From Coriobacteriia bacterium (GTDB lineage: Bacteria > Actinomycetota > Coriobacteriia > Anaerosomatales > Anaerosomataceae): a stretch of DNA of 64,000 bases. Position numbers and translations under genes: made by a program. Below the pieces are notes generated by a model. The model ran no database searches. It was not told where the DNA came from and saw only the letters and a list, made by a program, of their open reading frames with translations. This document shows positions 1-3,078 of this stretch, in pieces (the stretch's first letter is position 1; the number at the start of each line of letters is the position of its first letter). The stretch lies in NCBI GenBank assembly GCA_030651765.1, contig JAUSBY010000006.1:1-64000 (forward strand). Direction: 5' to 3'.

Positions 1-603
1 GCTGCCATCGCCGCGGGTGAACTCGCGTGCACGGCGTGCCACGGTGAGGACGCAGGCGATCACCTCGCGCTCCACGACTCCGCGCTATCGCCGTTCTGCG
101 CCACATGCCACGAGCCCAACCTCGTGGACGAGCACGACGGCTACGACTGCGCAACCTGCCACGGTAGCACGGACCCGGCGGTTGTCGCTGCCATCGCCGC
201 GGGTGAACTGGAGTGCCTGGCGTGTCACGGCGAGGATGCCGGCGATCACCTCGCGCTCCATGACTCCGATCTCTCAGCCTTCTGCGCCGACTGCCACGAG
301 CCCAACTTGATCGACGAGCACGACGGCTACGACTGCGCGGCGTGCCATTCGAGCACCGAGCAGGATGTGGTCGACGCCATCGCTGCGGGGGACCTGGCGT
401 GCACCGCGTGCCACGATGCGGACGCCGGCGACCACCTCGCGCTCCACGACTCGACGCTCGATCCGGCGTGCGCGGCATGCCACGAGCCGAACCTCGTCGA
501 CGAGCACGAGGGGCTCGACTGCGCAACCTGCCACGGCAGCACGGACCCGACGGTTGTCGCTGCCATCGCCGCGGGTGAACTCGCGTGCACGGCGTGCCAC
601 GAC
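1..603 (+). repeat. 186-bp tandem coding repeats in the cytochrome gene
   Basis: The segment encoding AAIAAGEL recurs at 1, 187, 373 and 559, a spacing of exactly 186 bp (62 codons) each time. Three full units are visible. The fourth diverges after about 45 bp, and the array continues upstream of the window. Units are near-identical at the DNA level, which suggests recent duplication or homogenisation by recombination. Each unit carries three CxxCH motifs. Confidence 0.95.
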
Positions 604-1206
604 CTCGCTGAGCACCCCTATGTGGTTGAACTGCACACCGCCACGGTGGGCGCGGAGCAGATCTCCGGCACGCTTATCGATGAGTTGGGCGTCCCGTTCA
701 CGCGTTACGACGGTTCAACGCAGACCTACGGTGGCCAGACATGCGGTGCGTGCCACTCCATGGACCTGGCGGAGGAGCATACCAAGCCGTCGTCCTCGGT
801 CGCCGCAGACGGCTGCGCGGCGTGCCACCCGTCGCCGCGCGACGAGTTCGAGACGTGGGATGGGACCTGTCTCCAGAGCGGCTGCCACGCGGCGGCCACG
901 CTGCACGACGATATGCCACTGAAGCACTCGTGGTCGGCGTGGTCCACCTCCGGCCAGGCGGCGACCTGCGGGTACGTGTCGTCCGGGTCCGGTAGGGGGT
1001 GCCACGTGGGTGAGTGGACGCTCGACCTCGCCGCGGTCCACGAGGAGGCCACGCACTTCGGGACCGTCTTCGTCGACACGAGCGGCTACCCGGACGGCTG
1101 TGCGTTCTGCCACAGCTCGAACACGGCCGTACCCGTCACTCCCACCGCCTGCACCGACTGCCATGGCAGCGCAGGCAGCCGTCACAATCCGGTGCCGCTC
1201 CCGTAG
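1..1206 (+). CDS. multiheme c-type cytochrome, 3' part
   Basis: The reading frame is open from the first base, so the start lies outside the window. The visible 401 residues hold 14 canonical CxxCH heme-binding motifs. There are also two longer candidates, CLQSGCH (CX4CH) and a CX10CH near residue 322-334. Most motifs sit in a 62-residue repeat with three CxxCH each; the last third is not repeated. There is no C-terminal membrane anchor or wall-binding module. Proteins of this kind are exported, loaded with heme outside the membrane and used as electron conduits, for example in extracellular electron transfer or respiration. That role is inferred here because no partner gene is visible downstream. 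The gene ends 44 bp before a toxin-antitoxin pair with its own promoter. Confidence 0.9.
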   Translation, partial: AAIAAGELACTACHGEDAGDHLALHDSALSPFCATCHEPNLVDEHDGYDCATCHGSTDPAVVAAIAAGELECLACHGEDAGDHLALHDSDLSAFCADCHEPNLIDEHDGYDCAACHSSTEQDVVDAIAAGDLACTACHDADAGDHLALHDSTLDPACAACHEPNLVDEHEGLDCATCHGSTDPTVVAAIAAGELACTACHDLAEHPYVVELHTATVGAEQISGTLIDELGVPFTRYDGSTQTYGGQTCGACHSMDLAEEHTKPSSSVAADGCAACHPSPRDEFETWDGTCLQSGCHAAATLHDDMPLKHSWSAWSTSGQAATCGYVSSGSGRGCHVGEWTLDLAAVHEEATHFGTVFVDTSGYPDGCAFCHSSNTAVPVTPTACTDCHGSAGSRHNPVPLP

Positions 1207-1215
1207 GTCCGGCAT

Positions 1216-1250
1216 TTCCTGTAGATTCCTATAGGTGCTAGTATAAGCCT
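1216..1250 (+). promoter_or_regulatory. promoter and candidate operator of mntA-hepT
   Basis: An extended -10, TGC-TAGTAT, ends at 1244, six bases before the ATG at 1251, and no Shine-Dalgarno is visible. A leaderless transcript is therefore likely. A perfect 8-bp palindrome CCTATAGG lies at 1228-1235 between the presumed -35 and -10, and a related half-site (GCCTAT) abuts the start codon. An operator bound by the antitoxin's own HTH domain is a reasonable inference. Confidence 0.5.
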
Positions 1251-1760
1251 ATGGACGACCTTCTCGACATCGCAACTGTCGCGCGCCATCTGGGCGTGTC
1301 GGAGCGCACCGTCTACAACCGCGTTCGCGCGGGCGACCTGCCGGCGCTCAAGATCGGTCGCCTGTGGCGGGTTCGGGCGCGCGATCTTGAGCGGTGGCTT
1401 GCGTCGTCCAGCCACACGGTGGATCAGCACGACACGAAAGCGGGGCACGCGGCCGGCCGGCGCCTTCTCGAGCGGCATCGCGGTGAGATCGAGGCGGCAT
1501 GCATCCGCCACCACGTGAAGCGCCTCGACGCATTTGGGTCGGTCCTGCGTGACGACTTCACTCCTGAGAGCGATATCGACTTCCTGGTTGATTTCCTGCC
1601 CGTGGATGCGCGTGGGTTCAGCCACCCGTACTGGTCGCTTGCCGATGAGCTCGAGTTCATCTTCGGTCGCTCTATCGACCTCGTCATGGTCAGTGCGGTG
1701 ACCAACCCGTACCTTACTGACGAACTCGAGTCATCTCGGGAGACGCTCTATGCGGCGTAG
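1251..1760 (+). CDS. mntA: MntA-type nucleotidyltransferase antitoxin with N-terminal HTH domain
   Basis: This 169-residue protein has two parts. Residues about 1-50 are an excisionase/MerR-like helix-turn-helix (DIATVARHLGVSERTVYNR, then KIGRLWRVRARDLERWL). Residues about 75-169 are a minimal nucleotidyltransferase with the signature GS-x10-DID (G99, S100, then D111 and D113 region). In the HepT-MntA family the antitoxin silences HepT by adding AMP to a tyrosine near its RNase motif. Most MntA proteins are the nucleotidyltransferase domain alone, so the fused DNA-binding domain is unusual and suggests autoregulation. The gene overlaps hepT by 11 bp. Confidence 0.85.
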   Translation: MDDLLDIATVARHLGVSERTVYNRVRAGDLPALKIGRLWRVRARDLERWLASSSHTVDQHDTKAGHAAGRRLLERHRGEIEAACIRHHVKRLDAFGSVLRDDFTPESDIDFLVDFLPVDARGFSHPYWSLADELEFIFGRSIDLVMVSAVTNPYLTDELESSRETLYAA

Positions 1761-2094
1761 TGCGTCAGTCCTGCTTCGTGACGCGATCGAGGCCGCGGAT
1801 TCGATCAGGTCCATCGTCGCCAGTACGACGATGGACGAGTACCTGACGACCCGCATGCTGCGTTCAGCCGTCGAACGCGAGTTCTTGATCATCGGTGAGG
1901 TGCTCAATGCACTGGACGGTCTCGGCCCCGACGCCCGCCAGCACGTCACCGACCTCGGCCGGATCGTCGGGCTTCGCAACCGTCTCGCACACGGTTACGA
2001 CACGATCGACGACGCGATGGTGTGGTCTGTCGCGCTCGACCACATCCCGCCTCTGCTCGCCGAGCTCCGCTCCTGGCTCGCGGAAGCGATCTGA
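1750..2094 (+). CDS. hepT: HepT-like ribonuclease toxin (DUF86)
   Basis: This 114-residue helical protein carries the HEPN/HepT catalytic signature R-x4-H-x-Y as RNRLAHGY near residues 77-84. In the family the Arg and His form the RNase site, and the Tyr is the residue AMPylated by MntA. The start codon overlaps the 3' end of mntA by 11 bp, the normal coupled arrangement for this toxin-antitoxin type. I see no degeneration, so the toxin should be active if released. Family assignment is firm; the target RNA is unknown. Confidence 0.88.
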   Translation: MRRSASVLLRDAIEAADSIRSIVASTTMDEYLTTRMLRSAVEREFLIIGEVLNALDGLGPDARQHVTDLGRIVGLRNRLAHGYDTIDDAMVWSVALDHIPPLLAELRSWLAEAI

Positions 2095-2121
2095 CCGCTC
2101 ACTTCGTTCGGTCTGCTGCGT

Positions 2122-2163: not shown

Positions 2164-3078
2164 ATGGCACTGCCCGAGGTGGAATTCATCTGGATGGACG
2201 GCGCGCTCGTGCCCTGGGCCGATGCCAAGGTCCACGTCCTCACGCACGCACTCCACTACGGTTCCGGTGTCTTCGAAGGCATACGCTGCTATGCCACCGA
2301 TGACGGCCCGGCGGTCTTCCGGCTGACCGAGCACATGGAGCGCTTCGAGCGCTCGGCCAAGATGCTCTTCATGGACCTCGGCTACCCGGTGGAGGAGATG
2401 GTCGCCTCGGTCAAGGAGACCATCCGCGCCAACAAGCTGCCGGCGTGCTACATCCGGCCACTCGCGTTCCGTGGCTACGGCGTCATGGGACTCGATCCGA
2501 TCCCCGCGCCGGTGAACGTCACGATCGCGGTCTGGCCCTGGGAGACGTACATGGGTGAAGAAGCGCTCGTCCACGGCGTGGACGTGGGCGTGTCGTCGTG
2601 GCGCCAGCGCGGCATCAACTCGCTGCCGCCGGCGATCAAGGCCACCGGCAACTACCTCAACTCCTCGCTCGCGCGCATCGAGGCCAATCGCCACGGCTAC
2701 AACGAGGCGATCCTTCTGAACGAGGAGGGCAGGGTCTGCGAGGGCACCGGGGAGAACCTCTTCATCGTCCGCGACGGCGTGATATCCACGCCGCCCGTGT
2801 CCGACGGTCTGCTGGAGGGCATCACCCGCGACTCGATCATGGTGATCGCCGATAACATGGACATCCCCGTGATCGAAGAGTCGCTGGTGCGCACCGACCT
2901 CTATACGGCCGACGAGATGTTCATGACCGGATCGGCGGCCGAGATCGTCCCCGTGCGCTCGGTGGACGGCCGCGTGCTTGGCGATGCCGGTCCGATCACA
3001 CTCGAGCTTCAGCGCACGTACTTCGATGTCGTGCACGGACGGGTGTCCGAGTACGAGGAGTGGCTGGAGCGGGTCTAG
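2164..3078 (+). CDS. ilvE: branched-chain amino acid aminotransferase
   Basis: This 304-residue class IV PLP aminotransferase catalyses the last step of leucine, isoleucine and valine synthesis, using glutamate as amino donor. The PLP lysine is K159 in PPAIKATGNYLN, and the EGTGENLF and TGSAAEIVPV segments typical of IlvE follow. The ATG is preceded by GAGGGGAG at a good distance. Length matches the family. It stands alone here, but citramalate synthase, which feeds the isoleucine pathway, is one gene further on. Confidence 0.95.
   Translation: MALPEVEFIWMDGALVPWADAKVHVLTHALHYGSGVFEGIRCYATDDGPAVFRLTEHMERFERSAKMLFMDLGYPVEEMVASVKETIRANKLPACYIRPLAFRGYGVMGLDPIPAPVNVTIAVWPWETYMGEEALVHGVDVGVSSWRQRGINSLPPAIKATGNYLNSSLARIEANRHGYNEAILLNEEGRVCEGTGENLFIVRDGVISTPPVSDGLLEGITRDSIMVIADNMDIPVIEESLVRTDLYTADEMFMTGSAAEIVPVRSVDGRVLGDAGPITLELQRTYFDVVHGRVSEYEEWLERV

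Follow-up and report, generated by a model that had tools for sequence, protein, structure and literature searches.

Successive triheme domains within one polypeptide are known from the periplasmic nanowire cytochromes of Geobacter sulfurreducens, among which GSU1996 carries 12 haems in four triheme domains and GSU2210 carries 27 haems (PMC10138318). According to the available text of that source, GSU1996 forms a crescent of closely packed haems and has been proposed to act as an electron store. The cytochrome described here resembles both proteins in its succession of triheme domains in one polypeptide, an arrangement proposed to serve as a store or a wire (PMC10138318), but it is actinobacterial and its array comprises at least ten units of 61–63 aa. 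The two also differ in their ligands: each GSU1996 domain is described as holding one His-Met haem (PMC10138318), whereas the three full units in the window lack Met.

Two further systems share some of these features, as far as the available portions of their descriptions go. PgcA from G. sulfurreducens is extracellular and repetitive, and its haem number varies among homologues, but the repeated elements are short TPTx/APAx stretches, between which a single haem lies, and not triheme modules (PMC5732950). The multiheme cytochromes of Borg elements also contain tandem repeats inside genes; their repeats are said to make the protein locally disordered (PMC11208441), whereas here the haem motifs themselves are repeated. 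Closer in taxonomy are the Anaerosomatales species Anaerosoma tenue and Parvivirga hydrogeniphila, whose genomes each encode 17–18 multiheme cytochromes that are proposed to act in Fe(III) reduction (PMC9686372). They probably belong to the same order as the genome studied here, and the available sections of that paper make no mention of a tandem triheme array. In the literature searched, we found no description of an actinobacterial triheme array that recombines, and nothing on repeats within a protein was found in the accessible part of PMC2825233.

Here we analyzed a 64,000-nucleotide stretch of DNA from a Coriobacteriia bacterium (hereafter, the window), which corresponds to C9:1–64000 of a 15-contig genome (G000). 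We consider it quite probable that the start of the window encodes part of a large exported multiheme c-type cytochrome of an anaerobic actinobacterium, with at least ten tandem triheme modules that were amplified in this lineage and diversified by recombination, and with a likely role in carrying or storing electrons. The kind of protein is known; this example is unusually long and its gene recombines.

A tandem triheme array at two contig ends

Tandem repeat analysis (TRF) revealed an in-frame array at positions 1–601/603 with a period of 186, 3.2 copies, a score of 768, and 78% matches, values that make a chance origin of the array remote. The array consists of three full units and part of a fourth, followed by a degenerate haem region (Table 1). 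Each full unit contains three CXXCH motifs, as the original prediction had stated, with spacings of 23, 17, and 22 residues. The same prediction called the units near-identical, which they are not: the three pairs of units share 81.2%, 71.5%, and 83.9% of their bases (35, 53, and 30 differences of 186), and 21, 29, and 18 of these differences, respectively, fall at third codon positions. With only 72–84% identity, the array is not freshly slipped.

Table 1. Features of the cytochrome locus and its right-hand neighbors (window coordinates unless a contig is given)
Feature	Position	Strand	Details
Triheme unit 1	1..186	+	62 aa, three CXXCH; unit-profile score 120.2 bits
Triheme unit 2	187..372	+	62 aa, three CXXCH; unit-profile score 114.3 bits
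Triheme unit 3	373..558	+	62 aa, three CXXCH; 440–534 identical to the final 95 bp of contig C15
Partial fourth unit	559..603	+	45 bp, one CXXCH; 559–601 identical to 1–43
C-terminal degenerate haem region	604..1206	+	Four CXXCH (CGACH, CAACH, CAFCH, CTDCH), then stop codon
3' end of multiheme c-type cytochrome gene	1..1206	+	401 aa, open at contig edge
5' part of cytochrome gene	C15:65740-67905		722 aa, 32 CXXCH, GTG start; outside the window
HTH (excisionase-type) + MntA-like nucleotidyltransferase gene	1251..1760	+	TIGR01764 above cut-off
HepT-like HEPN gene, partner of MntA-like gene	1750..2094	+	35.7 bits
Right edge of segment absent from G001	2118	.	Collinearity resumes
ilvE-like branched-chain aminotransferase gene	2164..3078	+	100% aa identity to G001; right-hand syntenic anchor

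The window and contig C9 start at the same base, which makes the left edge of the window a contig end. Another contig, C15, terminates at base 67,905 inside the same kind of array, with its last unit cut. The C15 frame has an N-terminal hydrophobic segment, a stretch with eleven CXXCH motifs at irregular spacing, and seven units measuring 61–63 aa. These seven additional units bear out the expectation that the array runs past the left edge and that the protein is larger than its visible part. The exact period of 186 bp, predicted alongside, holds inside the window but not on C15, where the units measure 183 bp and one measures 189 bp.

Some possible haem sites outside the regular motifs were also noted. 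In the C-terminal region, a non-canonical CX4CH motif lies at residue 290 of the C9 frame (window 868–888) and a possible CX10CH at residue 323 (window 967–1005); at the latter position, inspection by eye revealed CX6CH in one relative (G034) and CX8CH in another (G039). Near the N-terminus of the C15 frame, a CXXCK motif was seen by eye at residues 59–63 (L009:7915-7929). CXXCK is a haem site in NrfA, according to the available text of PMC6976685.

Probable exchange of sequence between units

Identity and mosaic tests were performed on ten units over 159 ungapped columns, 86 of them polymorphic; the 45-bp partial unit of C9 was left out. The sum of squared shared fragments was 20,316, compared with 8,158±437 in column shuffles, none of which (0/3,000) reached the observed value. 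Third-codon sites alone gave 5,542 versus 3,407±224, again with 0/3,000 shuffles reaching the observation. Because conserved and variable positions cluster, a second test used alignments simulated along the tree of the units themselves, in which the rate of each site was retained. The simulations gave 10,329±1,196, and 0/500 reached 20,316; the longest run, 59 polymorphic sites, was likewise reached in 0/500 (simulated mean 21). These simulations used nucleotides without codon structure and therefore control only partly for selection on codon runs.

Individual units displayed the same mosaic character. The 5' half of C15 unit 7 is nearest to C15 unit 6, and its 3' half is identical to C9 unit 3. 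More generally, the nearest neighbor differs between the 5' and 3' halves of units, and exact tracts of 95 bp and 43 bp adjoin diverged stretches. The longer tract places C9:440–534 in exact agreement with C15:67811–67905, the last bases of that contig. Exchange between units is the best reading of these sequence patterns, in which gene conversion and unequal crossing-over would look alike, and there is good support for amplification through intragenic recombination in this lineage. The original prediction that the array changes length by recombination thus stands in part: the mosaic units, the differing counts between genomes, and the one-unit difference in a second cytochrome (see below) favor it, whereas the divergence of the units opposes very recent slippage.

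We propose that one triheme module of 61–63 aa was amplified in this lineage into at least ten copies and that recombination between units, by gene conversion and/or unequal crossing-over, diversifies the array, so that haem number evolves in steps of three. A bolder extension of this proposal, which we regard as doubtful, is that the locus is hypervariable in haem length: unequal exchange between units would keep altering haem number by threes within populations, the gap in the assembly would hide additional units, and one species would hold a natural length series of a single haem chain, tuned to the distance of the electron acceptor or to storage capacity.

A rival reading is a static, slowly diverging array, in which old duplications are fixed in number and their similarity is kept by selection on haem packing. 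The 72–84% identity of the window units and the invariant haem and His positions (see below) would fit such an array. It does not account for exact tracts beside diverged stretches or for unit halves with different nearest neighbors, and the observed clustering was reached neither in the rate-kept simulations nor in the third-codon shuffles. We therefore regard a static array as improbable and retain exchange between units as the preferred reading.

Probable continuity of the gene across contigs C15 and C9

The C15 open reading frame is open at its 3' end and that of C9 at its 5' end, and the two frames meet at a codon boundary. A genome search found no triheme unit on any contig of G000 other than these two. 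Both contig ends were compared with G001, a sister species and the only other genome of the genus compared. On the C15 side, 7,570 bp of the tail aligned to G001 at 93.1%, stopping where leuB ends; on the C9 side, the head aligned at 94.3% over 8,944 bp from window position 2118. Both alignments lie on one 300,903-bp contig of G001, 77 bp apart, with no cytochrome between them. The anchor genes, which we take to be leuB and ilvE, were named by recognition and not by a family call.

These comparisons suggest that C15 and C9 are neighbors that carry one cytochrome gene. As synteny puts both contig ends together, the gene would encode at least ~1,131 aa with 46 CXXCH motifs and ten triheme units. 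This minimum assumes that no unit is missing, in which case 24 bp join the contigs in frame (722+8+401 aa, 32+14 CXXCH), and the total of 46 excludes the one CX4CH and the one possible CX10CH motif. The assembly gap between the contigs may hide further units.

A rival reading is that of two separate cytochrome genes that share a repeat family, each broken at a contig end. No end-to-end overlap of C15 and C9 was found, and the first halves of the units differ, with PTTWDH in the 183-bp C15 units and DAGDH in the 186-bp C9 units, as separate genes might lead one to expect. Such genes are nevertheless very improbable, given that G001 is collinear with both ends across a 77-bp interval on one contig, that each frame is open toward the other and meets it at a codon boundary, and that the unit occurs on no other contig. 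An assembly artefact, in which the repeat was extended in error or collapsed where a contig stops, has barely any probability. The array does lie exactly at two contig ends, and an exact repeat of 162 bp would account for the break if the missing 24 bp are the same as C9:535–558. But more than half of the ungapped columns are polymorphic, the units remain in frame, and in other genomes of the order the same unit stands in tandem away from contig ends. An error of this kind would touch the missing middle and not the existence of the units.

The leuB–ilvE site in relatives

In addition to the single cytochrome gene that we favor, a pair of MntA/HepT-like genes appears to lie in the segment missing from G001. 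The scores of this pair against the NCBIfam equivalogs for MntA (33.9 bits) and HepT (35.7 bits), which form a type VII toxin–antitoxin pair, were both under the cut-off of 60. The cytochrome gene sits among amino-acid biosynthesis genes, outside any electron-transfer operon.

Eighteen genomes were searched for leuB and ilvE, and 14 relatives had both genes on one contig. The spacing between them was 63–173 bp in 10 of these 14 and 1.1–8.7 kb in the other four, none of which carried the window cytochrome between leuB and ilvE. Relatives of the MntA/HepT-like pair occur at the same site in two genomes, G005 and G006, with HEPN identities of 70% and 74%; the pair may therefore be ancestral and the cytochrome a later arrival beside it. 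Loss of the cytochrome in G001 is equally possible.

Within the family, this site resembles a hot spot for insertion (window 1–2117, L078, L079, L080, and L081). The insert of G021 (L081) contains a pair of open reading frames bearing 12 CXXCH apiece and another bearing 4, and is unlike the window gene.

Relatives of the unit across the order

A profile built from nine units was run against 69 genomes of the order (E≤1e-8), and 19 of them contained the unit. At this threshold, G000 had ten matches, no single gene elsewhere had more than four, and G005 and G009 were among the genomes with none. A scan of the class at E≤1e-12 gave matches in at least 4 of 396 genomes, all of the same order, and the corresponding phylum scan gave at least 1 of 396, G000 itself. 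Neither of these two scans scored more than 16 candidates in any genome, and the misses in both are therefore soft. Scans of genome contigs and viral contigs by short peptide patterns returned no relative, and such misses mean little.

A unit tree was constructed from profile matches that cover positions 9–52 at E<1e-4, contributed by 22 of the 30 proteins scanned. Arrays grouped by genome, with support values of 0.985 for four units of G032, 0.960 for five units of G048, and 0.970 for two units of G031. All ten G000 units formed a clade with support 0.41. Repeated lineage-specific amplification within the order is thus likely, but the tree alone does not prove the case of G000. The growth route for such proteins would be amplification and recombination of one module, apparently several independent times in one order.

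Several large or repetitive frames were noted in passing. On G048:C14 (L054:3035-8410, minus strand), a related module is repeated five times in tandem, each unit being 216 bp (72 aa) long; the first four are 79–90% identical in DNA, and the fifth is 58–68% identical to them. An open frame of 4,305 aa on G030:C40 (L049:675-13592) carries 68 CXXCH and runs off the end of its contig. A 4,960-aa frame on G051:C59 (L048) has at least 20 CXXCH, counted in part of the frame.

Haem ligands, attachment, and family assignment

Nine of the ten units, all except the truncated C15 unit 7, were aligned (alignment A1). Six His columns were invariant across these nine (H14, H21, H25, H37, H45, and H54), that is, three within CXXCH motifs and exactly three others (H21, H25, and H45) per unit. 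Each of the three window units contains six His and zero Met. The His totals are 33 for the 14 CXXCH and two non-canonical motifs of the C9 part, and 68 for the 32 CXXCH of the C15 part. With three extra invariant His for three CXXCH in each module and totals that fit, two His ligands per haem are probable, and the sequence suggests that every haem is probably bis-His ligated.

Haem-attachment machinery is likely encoded in the genome, which has five matches over the cut-off to PF01578 (Cytochrom_C_asm), a family that also matches in controls with other systems.

The array scored 45.3 bits against PF14522 (Cytochrome_C7), above the cut-off of 24.8. Shuffled controls that kept only the CXXCH positions also passed (4/4, 32.6–48.5 bits), so the PF14522 label is uninformative on fold. 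The cut-offs of PF09699 and PF14537 were each passed by one of the same four controls. All three labels can therefore be false for multiheme proteins, as CXXCH spacing alone suffices. After this control, Pfam c7 membership was dropped as evidence; the protein is built like a c7 polymer but is not filed as one. Four or more tandem triheme domains are present, with three full on C9 and seven on C15, and they form one chain only by synteny. The search for a match between the unit profile and solved c7-polymer chains found none.

AlphaFold2 gave no model usable for fold: mean pLDDT was 48.7 for the window array by itself (201 aa) and 53.1 for a 62-aa unit with a three-row alignment. Among solved structures, no convincing relative of P0002 was found. 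We gave no weight to the match of P0001 to a 'Cytochrome c7-like domain-containing protein' (E=0.0052) or to that of the unit profile to OmcA (E 1.1e-5), the latter consisting of scattered CXXCH stretches. Chance or composition was taken to account for a Choline_sulf_C match and for the NCBIfam hits of the cytochrome, every one of the latter below cut-off.

Likely role of the array

The most likely role, which we favor somewhat, is that of an extended haem chain carrying or storing electrons, for which GSU1996 is the nearest functional model. The chain would do so at the cell surface, as in the extracellular electron transfer proposed for Anaerosomatales. Surface location, function as a wire or capacitor, and any change of unit number in living populations are what we infer from this reading. 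Work on conduction and electron storage in multiheme proteins usually relies on engineered fragments or on unrelated proteins that differ in length. One triheme module in different copy numbers in related genomes would offer natural length variants for tests of charge transport and storage.

A second haem-repeat cytochrome

G000 encodes a second cytochrome with internal repeats, at C8:59478-61202 (L011:3479-5203, minus strand). This protein has 575 aa and 25 CXXCH, and its gene contains repeats of 222 bp and 117 bp. The G001 orthologue is shorter by one 39-aa block (117 bp, two haem motifs), a one-unit difference that could be an assembly collapse in G001; the orthologue contains a stretch of N, and its remaining differences were not interpreted. 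Orthologues in six further genomes carry 15–23 CXXCH.
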